Shown here: one piece after another, positions 15,275 to 43,234 of the stretch | Layout: each line of letters opens with the position of its first letter | How positions within the stretch are numbered: position 1 is the first letter of the stretch | Source of the DNA: Alicyclobacillus contaminans DSM 17975 | GTDB taxonomy: Bacteria > Bacillota > Bacilli > Alicyclobacillales > Alicyclobacillaceae | Direction of reading: 5' to 3' | Assembly (NCBI RefSeq): GCF_000429525.1 | Contig: NZ_KE386913.1 | Coordinates: 6,186-64,314 of the forward strand | DNA length: 58,129 nucleotides | The notes under the pieces: model-generated | The model's input: the letters and a program-made list of their open reading frames with translations, nothing else | Told to the model about the DNA's origin: nothing | The model's database searches: none | Program-made: the position numbers and the translations under genes

Positions 15275-15484
15275 GTGCAACGCCCCTTCGCTCGTGATCT
15301 ATCGAAACGTGGAGTGAACCTTCCAATCATGATGATATCGAACTTGCGGCGCGATTCAAACCGGGCGTCGCCCTCGCGCTTCATCGGGTGCGCAAAGACA
15401 CCCTGTCGTTGTGGAAATTTTCGCTTTACTTTTACCCTGCTCTGTATTAAGATGAGTCACAATCAAAGGATCGAAGATACGCAC

Positions 15485-24641: not shown

Positions 24642-26063
24642 GTGACCCCACAAGACATACTGAGGCTGATGAAAGAGAACAACGTTGAGATGGTGGACTT
24701 CCGGATTGTGGACGTTCCTGGTCGGCAGCATCATGTCACCATTCCGGCGGTTGAAATCGACGAGGAAGTGCTTGAGCGCGGTGTGGCGTTCGACGGTTCG
24801 AGTATTCAGGGCTTTCGGGGGATTGAGGAAAGTGACATGGTCATGCGGCCCGTGTTGGAGACCGCGTTCATTGATCCGTTCATGGCTGCCCCCACGTTAT
24901 CCCTCGCATGCACCGTTTATGAACCCAATGGCACCCGGTATGACAGAGATCCGCGGTATATTGCAGAGAAGGCGGAGGCGTATCTCCAACAGAGTGGTAT
25001 CGCGAGCGCTGCCTATTTCGGCCCGGAACTGGAGTTCTTCATTTTCGACGACGTTCGCTTTGACAGCAGCCATCAGGGAGCGTTTTACCAGGTGGACTCC
25101 GAAGAAGCGATGTGGAACACGGGAACCGGGGAAAAGAACCTCGGCTACAAGGTGAAGAACAAAGGGGGGTATTTCCCGGTACCGCCTCTGGATTCTCAAC
25201 AAGATATCCGAACCGAGATGGTCAAAGAGTTGATGAACGCCGGCATTCGTGTGGAGCGCCATCACCACGAAGTGGCCACGGCGGGCCAGGCGGAAATCAA
25301 TTTCCGCTTCAGCACCCTCACGCGGACGGCGGACAATGTCATGACCTACAAATACATCATTCGCAACGTCGCTCGAAAATTCGGCAAATCGGTGACCTTC
25401 ATGCCGAAGCCCATCTTTGGCGACAATGGTTCCGGCATGCACGTTCACCAAAGCCTGTTTGACGGAGATCAGCCGCTGTTCTACGAGGAAGGCAAGTATG
25501 CGAATCTGAGTGAGTTGGCGTTGTACTATATCGGCGGTATTCTCGAGCACGCGCCGGCCATCCTGGCTTTCTCCAATCCGAGCACGAACTCGTACAAGCG
25601 ACTGGTTCCCGGATTCGAAGCACCCGTCAATCTGGTGTTCTCGAAGGGGAATCGCAGTGCCGCGGTTCGCGTTCCGGTGGCGGCTGTTTCGCCGAAGACG
25701 GCGCGCATTGAATTCCGCACACCAGACTGTACTTCCAACCCGTACCTCGCATTCGCAGCGATGTTGATGGCGGGTCTCGACGGCATCAAGCGGAAAATCA
25801 ACCCAATTGAACTCGGCTATGGTCCGCTGGACAAGAATATCTATGAACTGTCCGGCGACGAGAAGGCGAAGATTCGCAGTGTTCCGGGCTCCCTCGATGA
25901 GGTGCTCGCGGCTCTGGAATCCGACTACGAATTCTTGTTGGAAGGCGGCGTATTTACGAAAGACTTCATTCAAAACTGGATTTCGTTCAAGCGCAACAAC
26001 GAAGTGGCGCCGCTCAGTCTTCGTCCGCATCCGTACGAGTTCCAACTCTACTACGACCTGTAA
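24642..26063 (+). CDS. glnA: Glutamine synthetase, type I-beta-like
   Basis: Makes glutamine from glutamate, ammonia and ATP. At 473 aa it is longer than the 444-residue Bacillus type and carries the insertion typical of type I-beta enzymes (around [20 protein letters not shown]). All core motifs are standard: [51 protein letters not shown] and [15 protein letters not shown]. The tyrosine that is adenylylated in enteric enzymes has a counterpart in [13 protein letters not shown], but no glnE is seen here. GTG start behind AAGGAGTG. Its promoter carries a GlnR/TnrA box, so this is probably the main assimilatory enzyme. Confidence 0.93.
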
Positions 26064-26101
26064 TTTTTCCGATAGTTGTCCCTGTGGACGTTATCGCAAC
26101 C

Positions 26102-26141
26102 AGAGGGTGTTTCGGCCCGCCACGGCCGCAACACCCTCTTT
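26102..26141 (+). terminator. Intrinsic terminator of glnA
   Basis: AGAGGGTGTT (26102-26111) pairs with AACACCCTCT (26130-26139), with an inner CGGCC-containing stem, followed by TTTC. It lies 39 bases past the glnA stop. Confidence 0.7.
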
Positions 26142-26195
26142 CGGTGAGGAAGGGTCCGCATCCATGCCGCCACCGATGAACGATACCCCGTCGCC

Positions 26196-26223
26196 TTGCG
26201 ATTGGGGCTGTTTTCACTATACT
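26196..26223 (+). promoter_or_regulatory. Promoter of the MDR oxidoreductase
   Basis: TTGCGA and TATACT are separated by 16 bases. The start codon lies 66 bases downstream. Confidence 0.55.
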
Positions 26224-26289
26224 TACAGAAGTAGATGAAAAAACTGCTGCTTTCGAGCTGAATCGGAGTGGAAGCGGGGAGAGGAAAAC

Positions 26290-27285
26290 ATGATGAAGGC
26301 CATTGTCGCTGAAGGTGGGGCTGGGCTCGCCGGTGTGCGTTACAAGGATGTTCCCATACCCGAACCGGGGCCTGGACAGGTCCGGATTCAATTGCGGACC
26401 GCAGGCTTGAACCGCCGCGATCTGCGGGTGATTGCACTCGCCAAGACGGGTAATCCGCCGGTCATCCTCGGCTCCGACGGCGCGGGCGTCGTTGACGCGC
26501 TGGGATCGGGCGTGGAGAATTTGGCGCTTGGGGACGAGGTCATCATTCATCCGGCGCTGAAGTGGATCCGCAATACGCCAGCGCCACCGCCGGATTACGA
26601 AATTCTCGGCTCCCCCACCGACGGTACATTCGCTGAGTACATCGTGGTGGATGCGGATCATGTGGCGAAAAAACCGGACCATCTCAGTTTTGAAGAGGCC
26701 GGCGTCCTGCCGTTGGCCGCCTTGACCGCGTATCGCGCACTGTTCACACGGGGTGAGCTGCATCAGGGGCAAACCGTTCTGCTTCCCGGCGTGGGGGGTG
26801 GCGTGGCCACCTACCTGGTTCAGTTCGCAAAGGCCCGCAAAGCCCGCGTGGTGGTGACCTCGCGCAGCGCCGACAAGCGGGAATCCGCCCTCCGTCTGGG
26901 AGCGGATATGGCCATCGATTCCACGCAGGACTGGCTGCCCCAGTTGAACGGAGAGCGGGTGGATTTGGTCGTGGACAGCGTGGGTGCGGCAACGTTCGAC
27001 CAGTGTTTTTCCGTGCTCAAGCCGGGCGGTACACTGGTGACATTCGGTGCGACAGCCGGCGACGAAGTGCGCTTTGACCTGCGTTCGTTCTTCTACGGCC
27101 AATTCAATCTCAAGGGTTCCACCATGGGAAGTCGGGAGGAGTTCGATGAGATGCTTCGATTCGTGTCGGAACATCGGATTCACCCCGTTGTGGACGCGAT
27201 GTTTCCTCTTGCGGAAGCCGTGTCCGCGTTGACGCGGCTGCAGGACACCCGGAACTTTGGAAAGATTGGCCTCATCATCGGTTGA
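26290..27285 (+). CDS. Zinc-less MDR-type alcohol dehydrogenase/quinone oxidoreductase
   Basis: A 331-residue medium-chain dehydrogenase. The N-terminal GroES-like domain (residues 1-125) has AGLNRRDLRVIALAK in place of the catalytic-zinc cysteine motif, and no structural-zinc cysteines are seen. It therefore fits the YogA/quinone-oxidoreductase side of the family. The NADP domain has LLPGVGGGVATYLVQFAKA, TSRSADKRESALRLGAD and VDSVGAATFDQC. ATG 26290 (or 26293) follows GGGAGAGG. Its own promoter and the upstream terminator make it monocistronic. The substrate is unknown. Confidence 0.8.
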   Translation: MMKAIVAEGGAGLAGVRYKDVPIPEPGPGQVRIQLRTAGLNRRDLRVIALAKTGNPPVILGSDGAGVVDALGSGVENLALGDEVIIHPALKWIRNTPAPPPDYEILGSPTDGTFAEYIVVDADHVAKKPDHLSFEEAGVLPLAALTAYRALFTRGELHQGQTVLLPGVGGGVATYLVQFAKARKARVVVTSRSADKRESALRLGADMAIDSTQDWLPQLNGERVDLVVDSVGAATFDQCFSVLKPGGTLVTFGATAGDEVRFDLRSFFYGQFNLKGSTMGSREEFDEMLRFVSEHRIHPVVDAMFPLAEAVSALTRLQDTRNFGKIGLIIG

Positions 27286-27328
27286 TGGTGGCAGCGGGGC
27301 CGGCCGGCGGCGAAGGCGGCGGACAGCC

Positions 27329-27598
27329 TCAGCATCCCGCCAGCCGGCCACTTCGCCAGTGACCGGGGGACACTTTCCCATGGGCCGTCGGGTCGGGCTC
27401 CAAGGGATGGTGTTCGGCTGGATTGCGCAGACGTCGGTAGAAAATCACCAGTTCTTCTTTATTCCGTTGGATGTCCACAACCTTGATCTCGTGTTGCTCA
27501 ATCTCCTGTTGAATACGACGAAGCAGATGTGGGTTTTCGGCCACCTGTCGCCTGGACAGGGTGTATGTCAAAAAATCCTTGGCGGTGCGTCCTTCCAT
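27329..27598 (-). CDS. Small hypothetical protein overlapping the hydrolase gene
   Basis: An 89-residue product, MEGRTAKDFLTYTLSRRQ..., with a helical, charged, protein-like middle (IQQEIEQHEIKVVDIQRNKE). It reads in a different frame from the hydrolase and overlaps its last 33 codons. In the overlap the hydrolase frame looks poor (GRTHRQGFFDIHPVQ), while this frame looks real. A run of seven G just upstream of ATG 27598 can act as a ribosome-binding site. It could also be a slippage or sequencing-error site joining the two frames. No family is recognised. Confidence 0.4.
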   Translation of the reverse strand: MEGRTAKDFLTYTLSRRQVAENPHLLRRIQQEIEQHEIKVVDIQRNKEELVIFYRRLRNPAEHHPLEPDPTAHGKVSPGHWRSGRLAGC

Positions 27599-28731: not shown

Positions 28732-29289
28732 ATGACACGGATTGCATTGGTTTCTGGAAGTCCGTCGGAGCCGTCCAGAGTGGCATCACTGCTGGCCTGG
28801 CTGAGCCGGCGCCTCGAGACGCACGGGATTGAGACGCAGACCATTTACGTTCGGAATCTACCGCCGGACGACCTGCTCCATGCCCGCACCCAGAGTCCAG
28901 CCATTGCTCGCGCGAACCACGTGATTAGCGAGGCGGACGCCGTCGTTGTTGGAACGCCGATTTACAAAGCCGCGTACACCGGCATCCTCAAGGCGTATCT
29001 GGACCTGCTGCCCAACGGGGCCCTGGCCAATAAGCCAGTGCTGCCCGTCGCGGTGGGGGGCACCATCGCGCACCTGTTGGCGCTCGAATACGCCTTGAAG
29101 CCCGTGTTGGCGGTGCTTGGCGCGACCGTGTTGGAGAAGAGCGTGTTCGGTTTGGAGACGCAGTTTTCCCGACTGGATTCTCTGGATGGTTACGAAGTCG
29201 CGCCGGACCTGGAGCCCCGTTTGGCGGAGGCGGCGGAGCATCTGGTGCAACAGGTGAACCCGGTCTTGCTTCGCGCTGCTACGCATTAA
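28732..29289 (+). CDS. ssuE: NAD(P)H-dependent FMN reductase
   Basis: SsuE/MsuE-type flavin reductase supplying FMNH2 to the monooxygenases encoded downstream. The 185-residue flavodoxin-like protein has [15 protein letters not shown] near the N-terminus and [20 protein letters not shown] contacting the flavin, as in SsuE. It ends with [11 protein letters not shown]...LDSLDGYE typical of the group. ATG start behind GTGAGGAGGA. First gene of a six-gene operon, 34 bases before ssuD. It is probably the common reductase for the four flavin-dependent monooxygenases that follow. Confidence 0.9.
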
Positions 29290-29323
29290 TCCGAAGCTTC
29301 GACGGAGAAGGGAGGAGTGCCTG

Positions 29324-30490
29324 GTGGAACTGTTTTGGTTCATCCCAACACATGGCGATGGCCGCTATTTGGGGACGCGGAAGGGTGCGCGCGCGGTGAA
29401 TCACGCGTACTGTCGGCAAATTGCGCAAGCCGCTGATGAACTCGGCTTCAGCGGCGTTCTGCTGCCGACCGGGAAATCTTGCGAAGACGCCTGGATTGTG
29501 GCCTCCACATTGGCGCCGCTGACGCAACGACTCAAATTTCTCGTGGCCGTACGGCCTGGTTTGATGTCGCCGACGCTCGCCGCACGCATGGCTGCGACGC
29601 TGGATCGGTTTTCCGATGGTCGTTTGCTCATCAACGTGGTGACCGGTGGAGATCCGGTGGAAAACGCGGGCGATGGGTTGTTCCTGTCCCATGACGAACG
29701 ATATGCGGTGACGGATGAGTTTCTCTCCATCTGGCGAAAGGTGCTGACGGAGGAAGGGAAGACCGACTTTCAAGGGGAGTACCTTCGCGTAGAGGGAGCC
29801 GAGGTGCTCTATCCGCCGTTGCAAAAACCACATCCTCCGCTCTATTTCGGCGGCTCGTCATCGGCCGCCATCCAGGTGGCCGCGCGCCATGTGGACGTGT
29901 ATTTGACGTGGGGCGAACCGCCGGCGCAAGTGAAGGAGAAAATCGCTAAGGTACGCGAACTGGCCGCGGCAGCGGGACGGACAGTCCGCTTCGGGATTCG
30001 CCTGCACGTGATTGTCCGGGAAACGGAGGAAGCGGCGTGGCAAGCGGCGGACGAACTGATTCAGTATGTGACCGATGACACCATCGCGGCCGCGCAATCC
30101 GTGTTCGCTCGCATGGATTCGGTTGGGCAGCAGCGCATGAGTCAACTGCATCGCGGCGATCGGTCACACCTGGAGATAAGCCCCAACCTGTGGGCGGGCG
30201 TTGGACTGGTACGCGGCGGAGCGGGGACCGCGTTGGTGGGAGATCCAGAGAGCGTCGCGGCGCGAATGAGGGAATACGCCGATCTCGGGATCGAAACGTT
30301 CATTCTCTCGGGCTACCCGCATCTGGAAGAAGCGTACCGCGTCGCGGAATTACTGTTCCCGCTGTTGCCAGTCAACGTACCGCGCAATCCAGAAGAACGA
30401 ACTTACATCAGTCCGTTTGGAGAGATGATTGCCAACGAGCTGATTCCAAATCCACACGGTGCGGTTGAATCGGGGACAACCACTTCGTGA
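29324..30490 (+). CDS. ssuD: FMNH2-dependent alkanesulfonate monooxygenase
   Basis: SsuD uses FMNH2 and oxygen to cleave the C-S bond of alkanesulfonates, releasing sulfite and an aldehyde. The 388-residue luciferase-like barrel opens with [15 protein letters not shown], the diagnostic SsuD start. It keeps [30 protein letters not shown] and [10 protein letters not shown]. The mobile loop [18 protein letters not shown] is near the C-terminus. GTG start behind GGGAGGAG. The substrate could be methanesulfonate (MsuD-like) or longer alkanesulfonates; sequence alone does not settle this. Confidence 0.93.
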
Positions 30491-30515
30491 AAGGGATGGA
30501 GGAATCTGAACCGTC

Positions 30516-31952
30516 ATGACGAGGGGACAGCGTTTTTTGAACAGTTTGAACGACGGTCGTACGGTCTGGCTGGACGGGCAGCAGGTGCCCGATGTGACGC
30601 GGCACCCCGCCTTCACCGGCACTCTGGAGACGATTGCGCGCTTGTTTGACAGTTTGGATACCGCCGGCGTTCGTGAGCAAATTGGTTTTCCAAGCCCCCG
30701 TGTCGGCCAATATGCACACAACGCGTTTCTGGTGCCGCGAACGCGGGAGGACCTGGCTCGGCGAACCGCCGCGTTCACATACTGGGCTGAACAGACCCAC
30801 GGCGTGATGAGCCGATTGTCCGATTACGCCCGTTCCATGGTCACCGGTTGGTACGCGGTGCGGGATGCGTTTTCCCAGGATGATCCGCACTTCGCCGATA
30901 AAATCAGCCGCTACTACGAGGCGGCGCGCGACCAGGACCTGTTTCTCACCACCGCACTGCTCGATCCGCAGATCAATCGCGCCAAGCGCATCGACGAAGA
31001 GAATCCGGACGCGGTCCTGCGCATTGTTTCGGAAAACCACGAGGGTGTGGTGGTGCGCGGCGCCAAGATGATTGCCACGGCAGCTCCCTACACGCACGAT
31101 TTTCTCATTTTCCCGTTCCACCACGTGGACAGCGCGCATCCGCAATACGCCCACGCGTTGATTGTGCCGGCGAATCTCAAAGGACTGCACATCGTCTGTC
31201 GGGAGTCGTTCGCCAGCGTGGATGCGGTGCAGCATCCGCTCAGCAGCCGCTATGACGAGATGGACGCGGTGTTGATCTTTGACGACGTTCTCGTGCCCTG
31301 GGAACGCGTGCTGCTCAAGGACAACCCAGAGGCGGTCTGGCGCCTGCGCCAGAACACGTCCGCCAACGCACTCGCATTTCACCAAACCGTGGTCCGGGCG
31401 GCGGCCAAATTGCGGTTTGTGGCCGGCGTGGCCTGCGCCATTGCTGAATCCATCGGGGTGGATGGATTCCTGCACGTTCAGGAAAAGCTCGGCGAACTGC
31501 TGACACAGGTGGACACGTTGCAGGCACTGGCCATCGCGTCGGAGGTGCATTCCTACACCGACGACTTCGGCAATCAAATTCCGGCCATTGGCTTCTTGGA
31601 GACGGCTCGCAACCTGAACAGCCGCTATTATCCACGCGCCATTGAGATCCTGCAGCAAATCGGGGCCGGGGGATTTATGCAGGTGCCCTCTCAAGCCACG
31701 GACTACACGGGTTCCGTGTCGCAGTTGATTGACAAATATTTCGCCGGCGCCAGGGTGTCAGCTGAGGCCAAAATCAAGCTGTTCCAACTGGGCTGGGATC
31801 TCATTGGCAGCCAACTGGGGGCGCGGCATCAACTGTACGAGCGCTACTACGCGGGAGATCCGGTCCGGACGTTCGCCAATCAATATGTCAACGCGGACAA
31901 GGCGCGTTACACGAAACCGGTCTGGGATTTGATTCGTCAAGCGGGTGTGTGA
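30516..31952 (+). CDS. HpaB-family FADH2-dependent monooxygenase
   Basis: A 478-residue protein of the 4-hydroxyphenylacetate 3-monooxygenase (HpaB/PvcC) family, acyl-CoA dehydrogenase fold, which needs reduced FAD from a partner reductase. Marks are YFLNSLNDGRTVWLDGQQV-like opening residues (here FLNSLNDGRTVWLDGQ), GAKMIATAAPYTHDFLIFP in the flavin site, FDDVLVPWERVLL, and a C-terminal segment LFQLGWDLIGSQLGARHQLYE. In HpaB relatives the substrate is a phenol. Its place between sulfonate and sulfone monooxygenases is unusual and suggests an aromatic or quinol-type sulfur compound, or an early ring oxidation. ATG 30516 follows GGATGGAGG. Confidence 0.8.
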   Translation: MTRGQRFLNSLNDGRTVWLDGQQVPDVTRHPAFTGTLETIARLFDSLDTAGVREQIGFPSPRVGQYAHNAFLVPRTREDLARRTAAFTYWAEQTHGVMSRLSDYARSMVTGWYAVRDAFSQDDPHFADKISRYYEAARDQDLFLTTALLDPQINRAKRIDEENPDAVLRIVSENHEGVVVRGAKMIATAAPYTHDFLIFPFHHVDSAHPQYAHALIVPANLKGLHIVCRESFASVDAVQHPLSSRYDEMDAVLIFDDVLVPWERVLLKDNPEAVWRLRQNTSANALAFHQTVVRAAAKLRFVAGVACAIAESIGVDGFLHVQEKLGELLTQVDTLQALAIASEVHSYTDDFGNQIPAIGFLETARNLNSRYYPRAIEILQQIGAGGFMQVPSQATDYTGSVSQLIDKYFAGARVSAEAKIKLFQLGWDLIGSQLGARHQLYERYYAGDPVRTFANQYVNADKARYTKPVWDLIRQAGV

Positions 31953-32030
31953 TGGGAGCTGGCCGCACCGGCGAGGCGACGCGGAGCCGGTGAATCGCTT
32001 GCGGGAATCCAACAAGGGGTGGAAACAAAC

Positions 32031-33446
32031 GTGAAGCATGGACGGATCTATCTCAATGCATTCGTGATGAACTGCGTGGGCCACCAGTCTCCGGGGCTCT
32101 GGACGCACCCTGCAGACGAGAGCTATCGCTACACGGATATGGAGTACTGGAGCGAATTGGCCCGGACGTTGGAGCGTGGGCGGTTTGACGCCGTATTCTT
32201 GGCGGACGTGCTCGGCGTATACGACGTCTACCAGGGTTCGCGCGACGCGTCGGTGCGCGACGCCGCTCAGGTTCCCGTGAACGATCCGCTGCTCGTGGTG
32301 CCGGTCATGGCGCAGGTCACCAAACACCTGGGCTTTGGCGTGACCTCGTCCGTCAGTTACGAGCCCCCATACCTGTTCGCTCGCCGCATGTCTACGCTGG
32401 ATCACCTGACCAAGGGCCGGGTGGGCTGGAACATTGTCACCTCCTACTTGGACAGTGCCGCCCGCAACCTGGGCTTGCAGCGTCAGGTCAGCCACGATGC
32501 GCGCTATGACATTGCCGACGAATATTTGGATGTCTGCTACAAATTGTGGGAGGGGAGCTGGGAAGATGATGCGGTCGTCCGCGACCGCAATCAGAAAATC
32601 TACGCAGATCCGGCCAAAGTGCACGAGATTGGGCACCAGGGCAAGTACTTCAGCGTGCCTGGCATTCACCTGTGCGAACCTTCGCCGCAGCGGACGCCGG
32701 TGCTGTACCAGGCTGGGGCTTCCGCCCGCGGGCGCGCCTTTGCCGCCAAGCACGCAGAGTGCGTTTTCATCATTGCGCCGACCATCCCCATGGCGAGAAC
32801 CTATGTCCGGGCGCTACGGCAAGAGGCGGAGAAGATAGGCAGGGATCCTGCGGAAATTCGCGTGTTCTCCATGTTCACGCCGATTGTGGGGCGGACGCAG
32901 GCGGAGGCGGAAGAGAAGTATCTGGACTACGCCAGGCACGCCAGTTACCACGGTGCGCTGGCGCTGTACGGCGGCTGGAGCGGACTCGACTTGTCTCAGT
33001 ACGGGCCGGATGAGCCCTTGCAATACGTGCGCAACGAGGCCATTTATTCGGCCGTCGAGGTGTTCACGAAGATGGATCCGGACAGGCAGTGGACGGTCGC
33101 GGAAATTGCGAAGTTCATTGGGATTGGCGGCCGTGGCCCAGTCTTTGTGGGCACGCCCGAGTCCATTGCCGACACCATGCAGGCATGGGTGGATGAAGCG
33201 GATGTGGACGGGTTCAACATCGCCTATGCGGTGACGCCCGGCACCTTTGTCGACTTTGTCAACCTGGTGGTACCCGAGCTGCAGGCGCGGGGCTTGGTCT
33301 GGCGCGACTATGCGGCTGACACGCTGCGCGGCAATCTGTACGGCGGCCGCCGGCACTTGCCGGATCATCATCCGGCGCGGCAGTACCGCCGCCAGGGGCA
33401 AGGCGAGTCAGCCGATGTCGGCGCCGTGGCAGGCACGTCTTCCTGA
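32031..33446 (+). CDS. DszA/NtaA-family FMNH2-dependent monooxygenase
   Basis: A 471-residue bacterial luciferase-like monooxygenase of the NtaA/SnaA/DszA group. The opening MKHGRIYLNAFVMNC, then WTHPADESYRYTDMEYW and KGRVGWNIVTSYLDSAARN, are group signatures, as is VLYQAGASARGRAFAAKHAE. In DszA the reaction is opening of dibenzothiophene sulfone to a sulfinate; other members attack nitrilotriacetate or dialkyl sulfones. In this operon a sulfone is the likely class of substrate. GTG 32031, eight bases after AAGGGGTGG, is preferred over GTG 32019. The C-terminal 30 residues are extra and low in complexity. Confidence 0.85.
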   Translation: MKHGRIYLNAFVMNCVGHQSPGLWTHPADESYRYTDMEYWSELARTLERGRFDAVFLADVLGVYDVYQGSRDASVRDAAQVPVNDPLLVVPVMAQVTKHLGFGVTSSVSYEPPYLFARRMSTLDHLTKGRVGWNIVTSYLDSAARNLGLQRQVSHDARYDIADEYLDVCYKLWEGSWEDDAVVRDRNQKIYADPAKVHEIGHQGKYFSVPGIHLCEPSPQRTPVLYQAGASARGRAFAAKHAECVFIIAPTIPMARTYVRALRQEAEKIGRDPAEIRVFSMFTPIVGRTQAEAEEKYLDYARHASYHGALALYGGWSGLDLSQYGPDEPLQYVRNEAIYSAVEVFTKMDPDRQWTVAEIAKFIGIGGRGPVFVGTPESIADTMQAWVDEADVDGFNIAYAVTPGTFVDFVNLVVPELQARGLVWRDYAADTLRGNLYGGRRHLPDHHPARQYRRQGQGESADVGAVAGTSS

Positions 33447-33505
33447 ACTGCTGGCGTGGTAGGGTCCTGCCAAACGAAGGATGGCAAGTCGAAGGAGGGA
33501 TGACC

Positions 33506-34882
33506 ATGGAACAGGACCTTTTCCTGGCACAGCCTGAGGCCCGCGTCTCGGGAAAGCTGAATTTGTTGCAACGCATCACGTACTTCTTCGCCGTCTTAAT
33601 GGAAAAGTATCTGCCTGATCCCTTTGTGCTGGTGATTGTCCTGACGCTGGTGATGATCTTGCTCGGTGTGACGATTGTCCACCAGAGCCTGGCGGCCATG
33701 GTCAGCGACTGGTCCAGCGGTTTTTGGGATTTCCTCGAATTTTCGATGCAGGTTGCGCTCGTGGTGGTGACTGGCTACGCATTGGCCGTTTCGCGTCCCG
33801 TGGCCAAGTTGCTCGGCTGGGTGGCAACGCGTGTTCACGGGCCGAAGGGCGCCATTGTCTGCACCACCGTGGTGGCCGGCATCGCTTCCTACATCAGCTG
33901 GGGCTTCGGCTTAGTGGCAGGGACCCTGATGGCGCAGCAATTGGCCAAACGCATTCGCGGCATTCACTACCCACTGCTCATTGCCAGCGCCTATTCCGGC
34001 TGGATTCTGTACGGTCTCGGTGTATCAGCGACCATTCCCATCACGCTTGCGACGGCGGGCAACCCGTTCGCCGCGTCCATGGGCGGTGTGGTGCCGCTGA
34101 CCCATACCATCTTCTTGCCTGCTGTGCTCGTCGACGTGGTTGTCCTGATGGTGACGCTGTCCCTGCTCAACATGTGGATTCATCCCAAAGCCCAGGATGT
34201 GCTCGACGTCAATCCTGCCACCTGGGAAACGGAAAGTCAGCCGGCACCGGTGCAGAGGACAGGGACGTTCGCGGAACGCCTGGAGCATACGTGGTGGCTG
34301 AGTGCGGTGGTGGTGCTCCTCGGCGCAGGGTATCTCATCTATCATTTCCACACAGGCGGATCGTTCGACATCAATACGCTCAACGCTGTCTTTCTCTTCC
34401 TCGGGATTTTGTTTCACGGGACGCCGGCCGCCTACGTGCGCGCGGTGACCGACGGGGTGCGCAGTGTTGGCGGTATTGTCCTGCAGTTTCCGTTTTACGC
34501 CGGGATGATGGGGATGATGAAAGGTTCGGGCTTGGCGGTCGCCATTTCGAAATGGATGGTTGGCATTTCCACTGTCCACACCCTTCCGTTCTTCGGACTG
34601 CTCAGCTCATTTCTGATTAACTTCTTTGCGCCGTCTTCGGGTGGACATTGGGCCATTCAGGGGCCGTTCATGATACAGGCGGCACAGCGCCTCGGTGCCG
34701 ATATGGCCAAAACCAGCATGGCGGTGCAAATGGGGTGTTCCTGGAACGACCTCGTCCAACCATTTTGGCTGATTCCGATTCTGACCTTGGCCCGTTTGAA
34801 CGTGCGTCAGATGATGGGTTACACCATTGTACCGTTCCTTTGGGTGGGTGTGGTCTATGCGGTCACCGTGCTCATCTGGTGA
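33506..34882 (+). CDS. AtoE-like short-chain fatty acid transporter
   Basis: A 458-residue integral membrane protein with about ten to twelve helices, of the AtoE/short-chain fatty acid transporter family. Typical segments are YLPDPFVLVIVLTLVMILL, VTGYALAVSRPVAKLLGW, SWGFGLVAGTLMAQQLA and LINFFAPSSGGHWAIQGPFM. ATG 33506 follows AAGGAGG by seven bases. Known relatives are associated with short-chain carboxylates such as acetoacetate. Its place among desulfurisation enzymes suggests uptake of an organosulfur acid, or handling of the carboxylate left after sulfur removal. Neither is shown by sequence. Confidence 0.85.
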   Translation: MEQDLFLAQPEARVSGKLNLLQRITYFFAVLMEKYLPDPFVLVIVLTLVMILLGVTIVHQSLAAMVSDWSSGFWDFLEFSMQVALVVVTGYALAVSRPVAKLLGWVATRVHGPKGAIVCTTVVAGIASYISWGFGLVAGTLMAQQLAKRIRGIHYPLLIASAYSGWILYGLGVSATIPITLATAGNPFAASMGGVVPLTHTIFLPAVLVDVVVLMVTLSLLNMWIHPKAQDVLDVNPATWETESQPAPVQRTGTFAERLEHTWWLSAVVVLLGAGYLIYHFHTGGSFDINTLNAVFLFLGILFHGTPAAYVRAVTDGVRSVGGIVLQFPFYAGMMGMMKGSGLAVAISKWMVGISTVHTLPFFGLLSSFLINFFAPSSGGHWAIQGPFMIQAAQRLGADMAKTSMAVQMGCSWNDLVQPFWLIPILTLARLNVRQMMGYTIVPFLWVGVVYAVTVLIW

Positions 34883-34937
34883 CAGAGTGGCAAGATTTTG
34901 ATGGATGCCGAATGACTTGAAGCAGGGAGGAGATCTT

Positions 34938-36122
34938 GTGTCCATCGCACCCCCTGGCCAGAACTACGATTATCTGCAGACCGCTGTCGCTCTGGCGGAA
35001 CGATTTGGCGTTGACGCGGCGGAGCGCGACAAGCGTGGCGGGACACCGAAACTGCAGCGCGATTGGATCCGTGAGAGTGGACTGTTGAGATTGCTGATTC
35101 CCGCTGCGTACGGCGGAGACGGCCAACCGTGGTCGGCGGTGTTGCGGGTGGTCCGCGAGTTTGCCCGCACCGACGCCGCCTTGGCACACCTCTACGGGTA
35201 TCACTTCCTGAGCTTGTCCGCGGTGCACCTGGCGGGCAGCGAAGAACAAAAACGGCGCTATTACGAAGAAACGGTCAAGCACAATTATTTCTGGGGCAAT
35301 TCCGTGAACCCCTTGGACGACCGTACGATTGGAGAGCGGACCGAAGGAGGGGTCATTGTCAACGGCGCGAAATCCTTCAGTTCCGGTTCTCCTGATTCGG
35401 ATATGCTGGTGATATCCTGGCGGGATCGGGAGACGGGCGAATTCTACAAAGGCATGGTGCCAACCCGCCGCCTCGGGGTGCAGGTGCACGATGACTGGGA
35501 TTGCATGGGTCAGCGGCAGACGGGCAGCGGTACGGTGTCGTTCCACAACCTGAGGTTGGAGGATGAAGAGATTCTGGTTCGCCCGTATGCGCAGGACACG
35601 GCGTTCTCGACATTGACACCGATTCTGTCGCAGAGCATTCTGGCTTCCGTGTTCGTGGGCAGCGCCATCGGCGCGTTGGAGGCCGCGAGAAACTACACCA
35701 CCACAAAGGCGAGAGCCTGGTATCGCTCCGGCGTGTCCAGCGCCGCCGAAGAACCGTCCACGCAGAGCCGCTACGGCGAGATGTGGGCGAGTGTTCAGGC
35801 GGCGTTGAGTCTGGTGGAGAAGGCGGCGGCCGCGTTGGACCAGATTTGGGCCAAAGATGTCGCGTTGACGCAGGCGGAGAGAGGCGAATGCGCCGTACTG
35901 GTGGCGGCGGCCAACGTGCACGCCGGCAACACGGCGCTGGAGATCACATCGCGCATCTTTGAGGTGATGGGCGCCAGGTCGACGGCTGGGCACTACGGAT
36001 TTGACCGGTTTTGGCGCAACGTTCGAACACATACGTTGCATAATCCCGCTGAGTTCAAGCTGCGCAACGTCGGCAATTGGTTCCTCAATGGTCAATGGCC
36101 GGAACCCGGCTATTATTCCTGA
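34938..36122 (+). CDS. DszC/MsuC-like acyl-CoA dehydrogenase-fold monooxygenase
   Basis: A 394-residue acyl-CoA dehydrogenase-fold flavoprotein of the DszC/SfnC/MsuC group. These use FMNH2 to oxidise sulfur compounds: dibenzothiophene to its sulfone, or methanesulfinate to methanesulfonate. Features are LLRLLIPAAYGGDGQPWSAV, FWGNSVNPLDDR, NGAKSFSSGSPDSDMLVISW, DDWDCMGQRQTGSGTVSF and the C-terminal HNPAEFKLRNVGNWFL. The catalytic base Glu of true acyl-CoA dehydrogenases is not evident. GTG 34938, directly after GGGAGGAG, is preferred over ATG 34905. Last gene of the organosulfur operon. Confidence 0.85.
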   Translation: MSIAPPGQNYDYLQTAVALAERFGVDAAERDKRGGTPKLQRDWIRESGLLRLLIPAAYGGDGQPWSAVLRVVREFARTDAALAHLYGYHFLSLSAVHLAGSEEQKRRYYEETVKHNYFWGNSVNPLDDRTIGERTEGGVIVNGAKSFSSGSPDSDMLVISWRDRETGEFYKGMVPTRRLGVQVHDDWDCMGQRQTGSGTVSFHNLRLEDEEILVRPYAQDTAFSTLTPILSQSILASVFVGSAIGALEAARNYTTTKARAWYRSGVSSAAEEPSTQSRYGEMWASVQAALSLVEKAAAALDQIWAKDVALTQAERGECAVLVAAANVHAGNTALEITSRIFEVMGARSTAGHYGFDRFWRNVRTHTLHNPAEFKLRNVGNWFLNGQWPEPGYYS

Positions 36123-36132
36123 CACCCTGTTG

Positions 36133-36210
36133 ATGCCGCGGACGGATACCGCTGGATGCTTCACCTGACAAAGCGTACGGCAGGTGAAGCAGTACCACCG
36201 TCCGCGGCAT
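36133..36210. repeat. Large two-part hairpin after the organosulfur operon
   Basis: An outer 13-bp perfect stem (ATGCCGCGGACGG, 36133-36145, with CCGTCCGCGGCAT, 36198-36210) encloses an inner 11-bp perfect stem (TGCTTCACCTG, 36157-36167, with CAGGTGAAGCA, 36181-36191). Bulges of 11 and 6 bases lie between them. It starts 10 bases past the operon's stop codon. No T tract follows. It may terminate or protect the operon mRNA, or be a small palindromic repeat element. The rest of the 500-base gap holds no gene I can support. Confidence 0.7.
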
Positions 36211-36534: not shown

Positions 36535-36634
36535 GCACAGTCCTACTTTGGTTCTTTGATCCGTTTGAAACGAAGCAGGGGGCTTTGCACACGCTGCAAC
36601 CATTTCATCCATACATTGCTGAGGAGGGATGCGT

Positions 36635-37360
36635 GTGAAGACGAGTGTTCCGCTGTATCAACACTTGAAAGCCGAGATTCTCCGCGAAATTCAAGCTGGG
36701 AGATGGCGCCCGGGTGAGCAGATTCCGTCTGAGGCGGAGTTGGCTCAGGAGATGGGTGTCAGCCGGATCACGGTGCGGCAGGCGGTGGGGGACTTGGTTT
36801 CGCTCGGATATCTGACGCGCCGGCAGGGGAAGGGCACGTTTCTCGTGGATCAAAGACACTCTGTGGCGGCATCCAAGCTGCACGGTTTTGCTGAAGAGCT
36901 GCGCGCCCGCGGATATCAGGTGGACATTGAAGTCAAAGGGCTGCGCACGATGACATGCCCGCAGACGGTGGCTGAATCGCTGCGCATTGCGCCGTCTGCG
37001 CAGGTGATTCAAATCCGTCGCGTTGCCACGGTTGGGGACAGTCCGATATTTCGGGAGACGTCCTATCTGGTTCCGCCGCCGCAAGCCACACTGGCCGTTT
37101 TGGCGGAACACGGGGACACATACAATCATGTCTACGGATTTTTTGAACAGCATGGCGTAAAAATCTCGTTTGGGACGCAACAGGTTTCGGCAACACGGGC
37201 CGTGTACGAAGACATGCAGGAGTTGAACGTCCGCAGTGACGAACCCATCCTCATGATTCGCCGAGTCACCTGTGATCAAACCGGTACGCCGGTGGAATTT
37301 TCTGAAGTTCGCTATCCTTCCAGCCGTTATCAATTTGAGGTGAAACTGACCCGAGAATGA
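36635..37360 (+). CDS. GntR-family regulator with UTRA domain
   Basis: A 241-residue regulator of the HutC subfamily. The GntR winged helix is at residues 1-68 (VPLYQHLKAEIL, IPSEAELAQEMGVSRITVRQ, RRQGKGTFLV). The UTRA ligand-binding domain follows, with IQIRRVATVGDSPIFRETSYL and ILMIRRVTCDQTGTPVEFSE. GTG 36635, six bases after GGAGGG, is preferred over ATG 36629. It lies between the organosulfur operon and the sulfate transporter genes, all on the same strand, so it is a candidate regulator of either. Its effector is unknown. Confidence 0.85.
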   Translation: MKTSVPLYQHLKAEILREIQAGRWRPGEQIPSEAELAQEMGVSRITVRQAVGDLVSLGYLTRRQGKGTFLVDQRHSVAASKLHGFAEELRARGYQVDIEVKGLRTMTCPQTVAESLRIAPSAQVIQIRRVATVGDSPIFRETSYLVPPPQATLAVLAEHGDTYNHVYGFFEQHGVKISFGTQQVSATRAVYEDMQELNVRSDEPILMIRRVTCDQTGTPVEFSEVRYPSSRYQFEVKLTRE

Positions 37361-37617: not shown

Positions 37618-38649
37618 TTGAAACGACAGGCAGCGGGAATTGCAGCGATTTTGACAGCATCGATGGGGTTGATTGGATGCGGTTCTGGTGGGAGTACAAA
37701 CAATCAGACCACCGGCACGGAATCTTCCAAACCAGTTACCATCTACTTTGGTTCCTATAGCGTCACAAAGGATGTCTACGAGAATAAGTTGTTTCCGGCA
37801 TTTGAAGCTTATTGGAAACAGAAGACGGGGCAAACCGTCACGTTTCAGGCCTCGTTTGACGCATCTGGGGCAGAAGCGCGCGCCATTGCCAGTGGATTGC
37901 CCGTGGACGTGGCGGCTCTTTCGCTGGAGGACGATATCAACAAGATTCAGAAGGCCGGATTGATTACGCACAACTGGAAAGATACACCGACCGGCGGCAT
38001 GCTGACCGATTCGGTGGTGGCCATCGCGGTGCGCAAAGGAAATCCCAAGCATATCGAATCCTGGGCGGATCTGGCCAAACCGGGGGTTGTGGTGGACCTG
38101 CCCAACCCAGCCACATCTGGCGGGGCAAAGTGGGATATCAACGCGATTTACTATGCCGCCGAGCGGCACGGCGGGGCAGCGGCCGCCAAAGATCTCCTGG
38201 CGAACATTGTGAAAAACGTGAAGGTATTGGACAAGTCCGGTGAGGCGTCCATGACCACGTTTGTCAATGGCACCGGAGATGCGGCGGTGAGCTACGAGAA
38301 TGAAATCCTGGAATCCAGCGACAATCTCCAGAAGTTTGACGAGGTGTTGCCCAACTCCACCATGCTCATCGAAAATCCGGTGGCTCTCGTGGACAAGAAC
38401 GTTGACAAGCACGGCAACCGAAAAGTGGTGGAAGCGTTCATCGACTGGCTCGAGGGCTCTCAGGCGCAGCAGATCTTTGAATCCGCCGGGTTCCGGCCGG
38501 TGCTGCCGTCGCTGCAGCAGAGCGCCGCGGCGAAATTCAAGACGCCAGAGGATCTGTTCACGGTGAAAGAATTGGGCGGTTGGTCGACCATCAATCAGCA
38601 GTTGTACTCGACCAGCGGTTTGTGGAATCAGGTGTTGGAGGCAAAGTGA
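37618..38649 (+). CDS. sbp: Sulfate/thiosulfate-binding lipoprotein
   Basis: Extracellular substrate-binding protein of a sulfate/thiosulfate ABC importer. The N-terminus is a lipoprotein signal with lipobox LIGC (Cys21). The 343-residue product follows the Sbp/CysP pattern: FGSYSVTKDVYENKLFPAFE, FDASGAEARAIASGLPVDVA, DSVVAIAVRKGNPKHI, DLPNPATSGGAKWD and YENEILES. TTG start behind GAGGAGTGA. Its stop overlaps the cysT start by one base. First of four co-transcribed genes. Confidence 0.92.
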   Translation: MKRQAAGIAAILTASMGLIGCGSGGSTNNQTTGTESSKPVTIYFGSYSVTKDVYENKLFPAFEAYWKQKTGQTVTFQASFDASGAEARAIASGLPVDVAALSLEDDINKIQKAGLITHNWKDTPTGGMLTDSVVAIAVRKGNPKHIESWADLAKPGVVVDLPNPATSGGAKWDINAIYYAAERHGGAAAAKDLLANIVKNVKVLDKSGEASMTTFVNGTGDAAVSYENEILESSDNLQKFDEVLPNSTMLIENPVALVDKNVDKHGNRKVVEAFIDWLEGSQAQQIFESAGFRPVLPSLQQSAAAKFKTPEDLFTVKELGGWSTINQQLYSTSGLWNQVLEAK

Positions 38650-39524
38650 TGAAAACTCTTGGCGGGAGGGTCACGTTTCTCAGTGTTGGCGCATACGCAC
38701 TGCTGTTGATTGTGCTGCCGGTGGCGTCCATCTTTCAACAGGCGTTCGCGGCGGGCTGGGGCGCGTTTGCAGCCGCTGTCGTCCAGCCGATGGGGGTGGC
38801 GGCGTTGCGGCTGACGCTGGAGACAGCCCTGCTCGCCGCAGTCATCAACACGGTGGCGGGCACCGTGGTGGCGTACGTGTTTGAACGCATGCAACTTCCG
38901 GGCCGGTCCATTCTGAACGCCCTTGTGGACCTTCCGTTTGCGGTGCCAACCACGGTCGGCGGGCTGATGCTGGTGTTTCTGTACGGCCCCGCGTCCCCCG
39001 TGGGAGCCTGGTTCGCCAGACACGGGATCCAGCTCATCTATTCCCCCTTCGCCATTGTGCTGGCGATGATGTTTGTGACGCTGCCCTATAGTATTCGCAC
39101 TGTTCAGCCGATACTGGACCACGAAGATGCGCGGATGGAGGAAGCGGCTTACACGCTCGGCGCGAGCCCCGCGCGGGTCTTTTGGTCCATCGTGCTGCCG
39201 ACGCTCCGTCCCGGCATTCTCAGCGGTTTCGCATTGACGTTCAGCCGGGCGCTGGCGGAGTTCGGCGCCGTGGTGATTGTGTCCGGCAATCTGCCCATGC
39301 ACACGCAAATTTCCGCTGTGTATCTGTACGGCCTGTTGGAGAACTACGATACGCAAGGGGCTGCGGCCGTCTCGGTGGTACTGCTGGTATTGTCGCTGCT
39401 GGCCATGGTGGCTGAAGTGTGGCTGCAACGGCGGGAGCGGCGCGGATGGCGACAGGCCTCGGTGGTATCCACACCCGGTCAGGCGGGGAGGGTGATCCAT
39501 GATTCGGCGAATGGGACTGTATAG
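38649..39524 (+). CDS. cysT: Sulfate ABC transporter permease CysT
   Basis: One of two membrane permeases of the sulfate importer. The 291-residue protein has about six helices, FAVPTTVGGLMLVFLYG in the pore region, and the EAAYTLGASPARVFWSIVLP loop that couples to the ATPase. The frame opens at 38580, but the start is ATG 38649, one base into the sbp stop, since the MVDHQS... leader is out of frame with sbp. The last 26 bases overlap cysW. Confidence 0.92.
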   Translation: MKTLGGRVTFLSVGAYALLLIVLPVASIFQQAFAAGWGAFAAAVVQPMGVAALRLTLETALLAAVINTVAGTVVAYVFERMQLPGRSILNALVDLPFAVPTTVGGLMLVFLYGPASPVGAWFARHGIQLIYSPFAIVLAMMFVTLPYSIRTVQPILDHEDARMEEAAYTLGASPARVFWSIVLPTLRPGILSGFALTFSRALAEFGAVVIVSGNLPMHTQISAVYLYGLLENYDTQGAAAVSVVLLVLSLLAMVAEVWLQRRERRGWRQASVVSTPGQAGRVIHDSANGTV

Positions 39525-40299
39525 TTTTGTGTATTTCTGGCTTCTGGTGCTCCTGGTCCTGCCGGCGGTGGGCATTGTTGTCGGTGCCTTTCAAGGAGGG
39601 GCGGATCAGGTCTGGATGGCCCTGACCAGCCCGGAAGGACGGTTTGCACTGCGCTTGACGCTGGAAATTACCGTCTTGACCGTTGTCATCAATACGGTGT
39701 TCGGCGTTCTTGCAGCGCTCCACATCGCCCGGCGTCACATGCGAGGGTGGCGCATTCTCAACGCGGTTGTCGACTTGCCGTTTGCAGTCTCGCCGGTGAT
39801 TGCGGGGTTGGCCTTGGTGCTGGTGTACGGGCCGAACACATTCATTGGAGGATGGCTGCAAGCGCAGGGCGCCCAGGTGATGTTTGCCTTTCCCGGCATG
39901 GTGCTCGCAACCCTGTTTGTCACGTTTCCGTTTGTGGTGCGTGAGCTGGTACCCGTGCTGCGAGCTGCCGGAGTGACCGAGGAAGAAGCGGCTTTCACCC
40001 TCGGGGCGTCCGCTTGGCGCACGTTTTGGCAGGTCACATTTCCCAACATCCGCTGGAGTTTGTGGTATGGCATCACGCTGACCATCGCGCGGGCGCTGGG
40101 GGAGTTCGGGGCGGTATTGGTGGTCTCCGGAAGTGTCATCATGAAAACCCAGACGGCCACACTCTATATCTATCAAGCCACGGAAGACGGTCAGATGCAG
40201 GTGGCCTATGCGATGTCGCTTTTGTTGGCGGCCATCTCTTTTGTGATTCTCCTCATCCTTCAGTACCTGAAAAAGCGGCAAAGGAGGTTCACGGCATGA
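39499..40299 (+). CDS. cysW: Sulfate ABC transporter permease CysW
   Basis: The second permease of the sulfate importer, 266 residues, with six predicted helices. It has DLPFAVSPVIAGLALVLVYG and the ATPase-coupling loop EEEAAFTLGASAWRTFWQVT, followed by ALGEFGAVLVVSG. ATG 39499 follows GGGAGGGTGA inside the end of cysT. The stop overlaps the cysA start (ATGA), so the proteins are made in stoichiometric coupling. Confidence 0.92.
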   Translation: MIRRMGLYSFVYFWLLVLLVLPAVGIVVGAFQGGADQVWMALTSPEGRFALRLTLEITVLTVVINTVFGVLAALHIARRHMRGWRILNAVVDLPFAVSPVIAGLALVLVYGPNTFIGGWLQAQGAQVMFAFPGMVLATLFVTFPFVVRELVPVLRAAGVTEEEAAFTLGASAWRTFWQVTFPNIRWSLWYGITLTIARALGEFGAVLVVSGSVIMKTQTATLYIYQATEDGQMQVAYAMSLLLAAISFVILLILQYLKKRQRRFTA

Positions 40300-41384
40300 G
40301 CATTGAAGTGCGCCAGGTCGTTCGCCGATTTACGGCGGAAACGGCTGCCCTAAACGACGTCACGTTTCGTGTGGAAGAAGGCGAATTGATAGGGTTCCTC
40401 GGGCCCAGCGGCAGCGGCAAGACGACGCTCCTGCGCCTGATTGCCGGTTTGGACCAGCCCACGTCCGGCGAGATTCGCATTCGCGGACAGGTGGTGAATC
40501 AGGTGCCTCCCCAGCGCCGCGGCGTCGGGGTGGTGTTCCAGAATTACGCGTTGTTTCGTCACATGACGGTGTTCGACAATATCGCCTTCGGCCTGCGCGT
40601 ACAGAAGCGCGACAAGGCGTTCATCCGCGAACGGGTGCACACCTTGTTGGAGTTGGTCCGCCTCTCCGGACTGGAATCGCGTTACCCCCATCAACTGTCC
40701 GGTGGGCAAGCGCAGCGGGTGGCGTTGGCTCGTGCGTTGGCGCCGGAACCGAGTGTGTTGCTGTTGGATGAACCGTTCGCGGCCATCGACACCAAGATCC
40801 GTCGTGAGTTGAGGAAATGGGTGCGGAAGATCCACGACGAAATTGGCATCACCAGCATTTTTGTGACGCATGACCAGGAGGAAGCGCTCGAGATTGCAGA
40901 CAGAGTTTTGGTGATGAACCAAGGCAGGTTGGAACAGCTCGGTACGCCGGAGGAGGTCTACCATCAGCCGAAGAGTCTGTTCGTCGCGAATTTTGTCGGC
41001 GAGGCCAACCACGGGCAAGGGACGGTTGAGCGCGGGAAATTGGTGGTCGGGCCCCTGATGTTCTCTGTGGATCAAGCCGACGGGGCCAAGCTGAGCGTCG
41101 TGTTTCGTCCGTCGGATGTACAACTGTCCCCCGTGGGAGGCGAAAGAGGGAACAGCGTGAATGCTGAGGGCGAGATCATCCACCTGACGTACAAGGGAAC
41201 ATACTACACCGCAGACGTTCGACTCCAGGGCGGGATGCAGATTCAGGCGTCTCTCAGTCCGGATCAAACGGCCGCGCTCGGCGTTGGCAGTCGCGTGGGC
41301 ATTCACGTGAAGCGAGTATTGATGTTTGACAGCGAGGGACGTGCGCTTCCTACGGAGAACGCCGTTGCCGTGGGCGCGGTATGA
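40296..41384 (+). CDS. cysA: Sulfate ABC transporter ATPase CysA
   Basis: The ATP-hydrolysing subunit of the sulfate importer, 362 residues. Walker A GPSGSGKTT is at 36-44, the Q-loop is in VFQNYALFRHM, the signature is HQLSGGQAQRVALARAL, Walker B is VLLLDEPFAAID, and the switch His is in FVTHDQEEALEI. The C-terminal 120 residues are the TOBE-like regulatory domain (VVFRPSDVQLSP). The frame reaches back to 40014, but ATG 40296, overlapping the cysW stop and preceded by AAAGGAGG, is the start. A short GC hairpin about 25 bases past the stop is a possible weak terminator. Confidence 0.93.
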   Translation: MSIEVRQVVRRFTAETAALNDVTFRVEEGELIGFLGPSGSGKTTLLRLIAGLDQPTSGEIRIRGQVVNQVPPQRRGVGVVFQNYALFRHMTVFDNIAFGLRVQKRDKAFIRERVHTLLELVRLSGLESRYPHQLSGGQAQRVALARALAPEPSVLLLDEPFAAIDTKIRRELRKWVRKIHDEIGITSIFVTHDQEEALEIADRVLVMNQGRLEQLGTPEEVYHQPKSLFVANFVGEANHGQGTVERGKLVVGPLMFSVDQADGAKLSVVFRPSDVQLSPVGGERGNSVNAEGEIIHLTYKGTYYTADVRLQGGMQIQASLSPDQTAALGVGSRVGIHVKRVLMFDSEGRALPTENAVAVGAV

Positions 41385-42232: not shown

Positions 42233-43234
42233 ATGATTCGTATACAAGATCCGAGTGTGCTCACGTATCTTCAGATTGTCGGCGTCACCGATCAGGACGT
42301 GCAAATTCTGCACCAACATCGACCGTTTTTTGAACGAATCGTATCTCAGGTTGTGGAACGGTTCTATGAACAAGTGCACGCTGTGGAGCGACTTAAGGAA
42401 AAGTTCATGCGCCACGGCGATCTGGAGCGCAACAAGCGTATGCAGTCACAGTACTTCCTGTCCCTGTCGGCCGGCGTCATTGATGCCGCGTATGTCGAGC
42501 TTCGATACAACATTGGACGAGTGCATGCGCGCATCGGCTTGCAACCGGAGGACTACGTGGGATTCTATCGTTTCTACACGGCGGAAACGATTCAGCGGAT
42601 TCCAAGCATACCGGGCATCGGCGTGGAGGAAGCGCTGACATTGGCCGCTGCCGTGGTCCGACTCGCGCTGTTTGACATGGTGTTAACGTTGGCCCAGTAC
42701 GAGGCGGATGACGAGGCTCGGCGCAACGCCGTGCTGCGAGCGGATTGGTTGGAGTTGTCGGATGCCCTATCGCACACAGCGATGGATTTGGCGGGTACCT
42801 CTACAGAATTCGCCAAGCACGCCGGTGTGCTGGCGGAATCCAACGTGGAAACGGTGGCGCTGGCCCAGAAACTGTTGGCGCACATGGACATGATTTCGGA
42901 CATCAACGCGGCCGTTCAACAAATTTCCAAAGAGACGAACATGCTGGGGCTGAACGCCGCCATCGAAGCGGTCCGGGCCGGCGACAAAGGACGTGGATTT
43001 CGCGTTGTGGCAGCGGAAATTCGCCGATTGGCGGACGAAGCAAAGCGGTCGGCGCTCGAGATTTCGGAAAAGCTGAACAACTTGAAGGCGCTGATTGGCC
43101 AAATCATGACGCACTCCGAGGCAGTGTCCGGCATTGGTCAAGAGCAGGCCGCGGGCGCGCAGGAATTGGCTGCGGCGGTGGAGCACATCGAACAGTTGGC
43201 CAACGCGTTGAAACAGCGAACCGCTGCCCTGTAA
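42233..43234 (+). CDS. hemAT: HemAT-like globin-coupled sensor with a short MCP domain
   Basis: A haem-based oxygen sensor. Residues 1-165 form a protoglobin-like sensor domain with proximal His98 in [11 protein letters not shown]. Residues about 225-270 are the methyl-accepting chemotaxis signalling tip ([34 protein letters not shown]). At 333 aa it is about 100 residues shorter than Bacillus HemAT: the coiled-coil signalling arms are cut down and few methylation sites are likely. No membrane helix is present, so it is cytoplasmic. ATG behind TTAGGAGG. No chemotaxis gene is adjacent. It could signal to an array or act in a non-chemotactic pathway. Confidence 0.85.

Follow-up and report, generated by a model that had tools for sequence, protein, structure and literature searches.

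Alicyclobacillus contaminans DSM 17975 carries a six-gene operon (28732-36122, + strand) within the stretch of 58,129 nucleotides analysed here (the window), and we propose with moderate confidence that it serves sulfur acquisition, freeing sulfite from small organosulfur compounds, and that its HpaB-like protein would act as an oxygenase of sulfur and not as a phenol hydroxylase. The operon encodes, in order, the flavin reductase SsuE, the alkanesulfonate monooxygenase SsuD, the HpaB-like protein, a DmoA/LadA-type flavin monooxygenase, an AtoE-like permease, and a DszC/MsuC-family oxygenase. A wider proposal, which we judge about as likely as not, is that the Bacillota branch of HpaB to which this protein belongs (Thr at position 142, Ser197-Thr198 lost) is a new class of flavin adenine dinucleotide (FAD)-dependent sulfide/sulfoxide oxygenases, which would carry out S-oxidation in the assimilation of dimethyl sulfide (DMS) and dimethyl sulfone (DMSO2) type compounds where DszC, MsuC, and SfnB are missing.

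The six open reading frames (ORFs) are co-directional and lie where a first-pass annotation of the DNA had placed a tight gene run, with intergenic gaps of 34, 25, 66-78, 53, and 22-55 base pairs (bp). The family models agree with its count of a single flavin reductase and four oxygenases that use reduced flavin. The ssuE gene (28732..29289) encodes an NAD(P)H:flavin mononucleotide (FMN) reductase (TIGR03567, 197.2 bits, above the cut-off of 164.05; PRK10569, 167.4 bits, below 225), whose best solved relative is the Escherichia coli-type SsuE 4pty. The ssuD gene (29324..30490) encodes an FMNH2-dependent alkanesulfonate monooxygenase (PRK00719, 677.5 bits, above 510; TIGR03565, 632.3 bits, above 518.2); its best solved relatives are 7jv3, 1nqk, and 1m41. 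The same annotation had read the run as an operon for organosulfur use in which SsuE provides reduced flavin and SsuD acts last, and this holds up: both proteins exceed curated cut-offs, a sulfate transporter is encoded downstream, and the oxygenases recur in sulfur loci elsewhere. Pfam families matched by the six proteins were limited to FMN_red/Flavodoxin_2, Bac_luciferase, HpaB, SCFA_trans/Na_H_antiporter, and Acyl-CoA_dh, in line with the earlier statement that the run has no DszB-like gene; this negative applies to the six operon genes, the rest of the genome not having been searched for DszB.

An HpaB-like protein with an altered active site

The product of the third gene (30516..31952, + strand), a predicted S-oxygenase of a sulfur-linked Thr142 clade, scored 399.8 bits against the HpaB-1 model, below the cut-off of 480.2, and is ~40% identical to TtHpaB. 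Catalysis by TtHpaB involves Arg100, Tyr104, and His142, of which His142 deprotonates the phenol, while Ser197 and Thr198 hold the carboxylate of the substrate (PMC10537072). We compared these positions in 115 HpaB proteins, comprising 64 with Thr at position 142 (Thr-type), 34 with another residue that is not His, and 17 with His (His-type). Matches with <85% coverage or <430 amino acids were left out (L095, L163, and an interrupted copy in G335, among others), and removal of six identical rows (123 to 117) and of two mistranslated sequences (L015_1501 and L026_1501) preceded both the residue table and the neighbour counts given below.

Arg100, Gln148, Arg151, and Thr185 were conserved in 64/64 Thr-type rows and Tyr104 in 62/64, with Phe in the other two. 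His142 and the Ser197-Thr198 segment were found in 0/64, the window protein included; the positions of Ser197 and Thr198 were both gapped in all 98 non-His rows, and the Ser-Thr pair was kept in 15 of the 17 His-type rows. In the numbering of the window protein itself, position 142 corresponds to residue 146. Read by motif and not by structure, Gln148/Arg151 would be the counterpart of the Gln158/Arg161 pair in the FAD loop of HadA (PMC8342789).

The first-pass annotation had added a phenol-hydroxylase-type step to the pathway. On this reading, the substrate would be an aryl sulfonate or another aromatic compound of sulfur, and HpaB would hydroxylate a phenolic intermediate. Although the HpaB fold and the conserved Arg100 and Tyr104 agree with such a role, His142 and the Ser197-Thr198 segment are gone from every Thr-type row, and a Pfam scan of 20 window ORFs turned up no ring-cleavage family, whereas genes of this sort adjoin the His-type controls in both loci examined. 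In these two control loci, genes of the FAA hydrolase, DHDPS, IclR, and glyoxalase/dioxygenase superfamilies lie beside hpaB, as would fit 4-hydroxyphenylacetate catabolism. Because His142 is replaced by Thr, the Ser197-Thr198 segment is lost, and the neighbours of the clade are sulfur genes, the HpaB-like protein is probably no phenol hydroxylase; we have dropped this step from the pathway and consider the aromatic route very improbable.

Gene neighbourhoods of the HpaB clade

A two-pattern scan across 84,980 species genomes yielded 79 named loci (≥47% identity in 78, 31% in the remaining one), and their neighbouring genes were assigned by tblastn with the window and locus proteins. SsuD-type genes were present in 44 of the 79 loci, SfnG-type genes in 27, both in 24, and any gene of the SsuD, SfnG, LadA, or MsuC type in 52. 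The gene immediately 3' of hpaB was of the SsuD type in 36 loci, the SfnG type in 6, and the LadA type in 5, and MsuC-like in 3.

An SsuD- or SfnG-type gene lay within 10 kilobases in 58/64 of the Thr-type rows, 5/34 of the other non-His rows, and 1/8 of the His-type rows with flanks, though these counts are not independent, since many rows are close relatives and some loci have short flanks. Five of the remaining six Thr-type rows have another oxygenase of the set nearby, and one has none. Each of the five positive rows of the other non-His type is the second member of a tandem pair, and one more lies near SsuE; the lone positive His-type row (L127_4208) shares its locus with a Thr-type copy. 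A weak acyl-CoA dehydrogenase match is found near the His-type hpaB of L042, and genome G025 carries both a Thr-type and a His-type HpaB. In an HpaB tree built by a quick method, a branch with support of 93 had all the His rows on the same side, several long branches being flagged.

Four arrangements are found repeatedly: hpaB-ssuD-sfnG, in some cases with an acyl-CoA dehydrogenase gene; tandem hpaB, accompanied by SfnG-like genes and NlpA/MetI-type transporters; hpaB-ssuD together with SfnB and a pair of LadA-type genes (the single SfnB tested scored 525 over 431); and the Alicyclobacillus core. All four oxygenases occur together, without atoE, in Cohnella laeviribosi (L097) and Paenibacillus pinihumi (L154). 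As a separate observation, a sister group with Ile142 (L133-L146 and similar Paenibacillus loci) lies beside genes for an FtsX-type permease, a histidine kinase, and a glycosidase, with no sulfur gene near.

Candidate steps for the HpaB-like and DmoA-like proteins

MsuC was looked for in the genomes of 12 of the 19 named SfnG loci, and a homologue of DszC, MsuC, or SfnB at an E-value of 1e-25 was absent from 10 of these 12 hpaB-sfnG genomes, for which completeness was not given. Because of this absence, HpaB is a candidate for the S-oxidation before SfnG, or for the sulfinate step. Three of the ten (L119, L122, and L128) have a locus free of any acyl-CoA-dehydrogenase-fold gene as well. The sulfinate alternative, in which HpaB-like proteins oxidise sulfinate to sulfonate in the stead of MsuC and other enzymes perform the early oxidations, draws on L119 and L128, whose loci hold only hpaB, ssuD, and sfnG and whose genomes lack any MsuC homologue, so that the sulfinate step is vacant there too. 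It is opposed by the coexistence of HpaB-like and DszC/MsuC-like proteins in the window operon and in most Alicyclobacillaceae loci. Moreover, the sulfinate step is the one that needs an enzyme least, because deletion of msuC in Acinetobacter left growth unimpaired and FMNH2 alone can oxidise sulfinate (PMC13352529). We regard this alternative as distinctly unlikely.

SfnG was detected at an E-value of 1e-100 in 12/17 genomes with a Thr-type HpaB and in 10/381 others of the 398 genomes compared (Fisher test, 1e-13, with kinship ignored). The five SfnG-less Thr-type genomes, that of the window included, all belong to the Alicyclobacillaceae and all carry hpaB-dmoA-atoE-dszC, which suggests that the DmoA-like enzyme occupies the place of SfnG. 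Three genomes hold both a DmoA-like protein and SfnG.

The DmoA-like protein (32031..33446, + strand, in an ORF that opens at 32019) is a class C flavin monooxygenase of the DmoA/LadA type with a predicted role in C-S cleavage. It matched TIGR03860, the NtaA/DmoA family, at 586.8 bits (subfamily cut-off 279.7). The label 'DszA-like' that it had been given does not stand, since among solved relatives DszA ranks fifth (275.6 bits), after DmoA (572.4), LadA (544.7), HcbA1 (361.9), and riboflavin lyase (319.4).

DmoA acts on DMS itself, and the window enzyme might likewise dealkylate an unoxidised sulfide to a thiol, so that the route would run through the thiol and not the sulfone. DmoA is its best solved relative, the two group together with a protein of L097 at 100/100 in the tree, and 18/20 published DmoA binding residues are kept, as against 14/20 in LadA, the list itself resting on an alignment to LadA (PMC9259527). 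DmoA, however, sits on a long branch and overall identity is higher to LadA (57%) than to DmoA (53%); two S-oxygenase-like neighbours would be superfluous in a thiol route, and the occurrence of DmoA-like proteins in SfnG-lacking genomes fits a role on sulfones. We consider the thiol route somewhat unlikely and favour cleavage of an oxidised substrate.

LadA is a long-chain alkane monooxygenase. Plain alkane oxidation is not favoured for the window enzyme, which is encoded in a sulfur operon, its higher identity to LadA notwithstanding. Separately, the LadA of Geobacillus (3b9n) groups at 95/98 with Paenibacillus and Cohnella genes that are 66-68% identical to it. Such genes occur in loci L094, L095, L102, L104, L106, L108, L112, L115, L127, and L129, where they adjoin SfnB-like genes (one tested, above cut-off) and NlpA-type ABC (ATP-binding cassette) transporter genes; these LadA relatives may have sulfur compounds as substrates.

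The last gene of the operon encodes a predicted S-oxygenase of the acyl-CoA-dehydrogenase fold (34938..36122, + strand; the ORF opens at 34905, and 34938 has the better ribosome-binding site). The first-pass annotation had called it DszC-like. All five residues of the DszC set His92, Tyr96, Ser163, His388, and His391 are present in the window protein and in 10/10 rows at ≥59% identity to it; we take these five to be catalytic, His391 alone being confirmed in print. MsuC deviates from the set at the second (Phe) and fourth (Gln) residues. By overall similarity, the protein is nearer to MsuC (377.5 bits, 45% identity) than to DszC (320.9 bits, 43%), and it remains below the curated models of DszC (350 vs. 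850) and SfnB (276.8 vs. 430.9). We changed the label to DszC/MsuC-family. The genome has no second enzyme of this kind, the next match being 27% identical.

Proposed pathway

We suggest that SsuE would supply reduced flavin to all four oxygenases. The HpaB-like and DszC-like proteins would oxygenate sulfur, taking sulfide to sulfoxide and sulfone, and the DmoA-like protein would break a C-S bond, most likely that of an oxidised sulfur compound, in the slot taken elsewhere by SfnG. SsuD, as assigned from its curated models, would split the resulting sulfonate into an aldehyde and sulfite.

The AtoE-like permease (33500..34882, + strand) matched Pfam SCFA_trans at 416.3 bits (cut-off 27), and might move a small anion of the pathway. 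Short carboxylates are the cargo of AtoE-family proteins, and a variant of the proposal, with the oxygenases acting as above, has short sulfur carboxylates (e.g., methylthiopropionate) as the substrate imported by this permease. In its favour, dmoA adjoins atoE in 9/9 genomes of the family Alicyclobacillaceae with this HpaB. The permease nevertheless stays below the cut-off of TIGR00366 (409.5 vs. 575.75), and AtoE is found in 5/79 named loci, all of Alicyclobacillus, so that the clade can do without it. This variant seems unlikely to us.

Several observations count against the sulfur role proposed for the HpaB-like protein and the operon. The loci for the MsuC comparison were chosen: of the seven omitted, three include an MsuC-like gene (63-70% identity). 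In 7 of the 10 genomes scored as lacking MsuC, the locus has a gene of the acyl-CoA-dehydrogenase fold (AcDH29). By the curated cut-off, SfnG is present in only 7/17 Thr-type genomes (10/381 others), and the genome of the window has none above that cut-off of 382.95, its best match (169.5) being SsuD itself. The greater overall identity of the DmoA-like protein to LadA also belongs here. The entire HpaB clade cannot be called a sulfur family, because sulfur genes are missing from the vicinity of 28/34 rows with neither His nor Thr. The linkage of the operon to sulfate transporter genes is not general, because it was not seen in a related genome (G019), where gntR is followed by a gene on the opposite strand.

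Distribution and conservation

At an E-value of 1e-120, this HpaB was found in 9/41 genomes of the family, and the wider HpaB clade in 35/398 genomes of the class and in 4/398 of a phylum sample, all four of the same class. The order hpaB-dmoA-atoE is kept in eight of the nine family genomes (the window and seven others, with protein identities of 69-85%), which is more than chance would give. The dszC-like gene follows in seven (the window and six others), with a fragment only in A. herbarius. The A. shizuokensis contig ends after atoE without a dszC-like gene, and its dmoA has a frame break; both species show broken or partial cluster genes. In A. kakegawensis and A. shizuokensis, ssuD and hpaB are separated by SsuABC-type genes, of which A. 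herbarius has a part at this place. Another genome of the genus (G001, locus L036) has the order ssuE-dmoA-atoE-sfnG-hpaB; the match to its hpaB is limited to residues 3-279 and 369-473, which looks like a loss of ~90 residues. The first-pass annotation had named failure of the gene set to co-occur in other genomes as the result that would speak against it: the exact six-gene order was indeed seen in the window only, while the four-gene core and the set of oxygenases recur.

Comparison with known systems

One of the closest known systems is DMS assimilation in Acinetobacter baylyi ADP1 (Dms1-3, the SfnG-type MsuD, MsuC, SsuD, and MsuE), where one reductase feeds several two-component monooxygenases and S-oxidation is followed by C-S cleavage and then SsuD (PMC13352529). 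The part of that report at hand names no HpaB-family enzyme among its S-oxygenases, and its main text does not mention Bacillota or Firmicutes (PMC13352529). Unlike ADP1, the window lacks SfnG above cut-off and has a DmoA-like enzyme and an AtoE-like permease. The Pseudomonas systems msuEDC, sfnFG, and ssuEADCBF share with it the SsuE and SsuD families and an enzyme of the MsuC/DszC fold, but the window operon has HpaB-like and DmoA-like proteins, no SfnG/MsuD, and no SsuABC inside it.

With dszABC of the 4S pathway, the operon has in common a DszC-fold S-oxygenase with the His/Tyr/Ser/His/His set and a member of the wider family of DszA; that member, however, is far closer to DmoA/LadA, the run holds no DszB-like gene, and the DszC-like protein reaches only 350 of the 850 bits that the DszC model requires. 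TtHpaB and HpaB-1 resemble the third protein in fold family, in identity, and in Arg100, Tyr104, Gln148/Arg151, and Thr185, and differ from it at His142 (Thr), in the Ser197-Thr198 segment (absent), in the family cut-off (not reached), and in its sulfur operon. DmoA of Hyphomicrobium and LadA of Geobacillus differ from the fourth protein in context, which here is SsuED with HpaB-like and DszC-like proteins.

Multi-oxygenase sulfur assimilation is already known, and an HpaB-fold enzyme within such a pathway appears new. No HpaB-family enzyme tied to organosulfur use was found in the titles and abstract beginnings among the matches listed from the open-licence literature, which is weak evidence of novelty. 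If the proposal is right, many proteins of Paenibacillus, Cohnella, Brevibacillus, and Alicyclobacillus named '4-hydroxyphenylacetate 3-monooxygenase' carry the wrong name and serve the use of organosulfur compounds, and position 142 would be a single-residue marker separating two kinds of HpaB. The C4a-hydroperoxyflavin chemistry of HpaB would then have been redirected from phenols to sulfur through loss of the substrate base, and the Bacillota would gain a route for the sulfur of DMS, dimethyl sulfoxide (DMSO), and sulfones that the available part of the Acinetobacter work does not cover.

Surrounding genes

Just beyond the stretch described in the first-pass annotation, and on the same strand as the operon, lie a GntR/UTRA gene (36629..37360; Pfam GntR and UTRA), a candidate regulator of the operon, and then sbp-cysT-cysW-cysA (37618-41384). 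In the related genomes G019 and G004, too, a gntR copy of 75% identity lies 3' of the dszC-like gene. The transporter genes encode a sulfate-type ABC substrate-binding protein (37618..38649; TIGR00971, 210.4 over 155.5), a CysT-type permease (38580..39524, the true start probably further in; TIGR00969, 271.8 over 240, and TIGR02139, 259.3 over 246.1), a CysW-type permease (39499..40299; TIGR00969, 287.1 over 240, and TIGR02140, 289.1, below 329.1), and a CysA-type ATPase (40296..41384; TIGR00968, 354.1 over 342.75, and PRK10851, 363.7, below 502). The ORF of the last is listed from 40014, but its domain match starts only at residue 95-97. Upstream of ssuE lie glnA and genes that encode a zinc-type dehydrogenase and a hydrolase of the alpha/beta type.

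A long hairpin of nested inverted repeats with perfect arms of 13 and 11 nucleotides lies between the operon and gntR (36133..36210, + strand; fold z -5.81, with 0/200 shuffles equally stable). It did not match an intrinsic terminator, the T-run being absent. Scans for promoters (4 sites vs. 2.5 by chance) and terminator-like sites (8 vs. 8.4) were not used, and Rfam at gathering score gave no RNA element within the operon. The one shared element sought among the repeats 5' of ssuE and gntR, an ATCCGAT-like core, is short and belongs to two-copy families, and we claim no operator.

Elsewhere in the genome, a second site on contig C26 (~24963-27361) encodes an SsuA-like protein (32%) close to an oxygenase of the luciferase type. 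Within the window, a T-box leader (Rfam, 114.9 bits) is located upstream of the operon at 15483-15751 on the + strand, and a fusion of a protoglobin with a chemotaxis signalling domain at 42233-43234 is likely an oxygen-sensing globin-coupled receptor.

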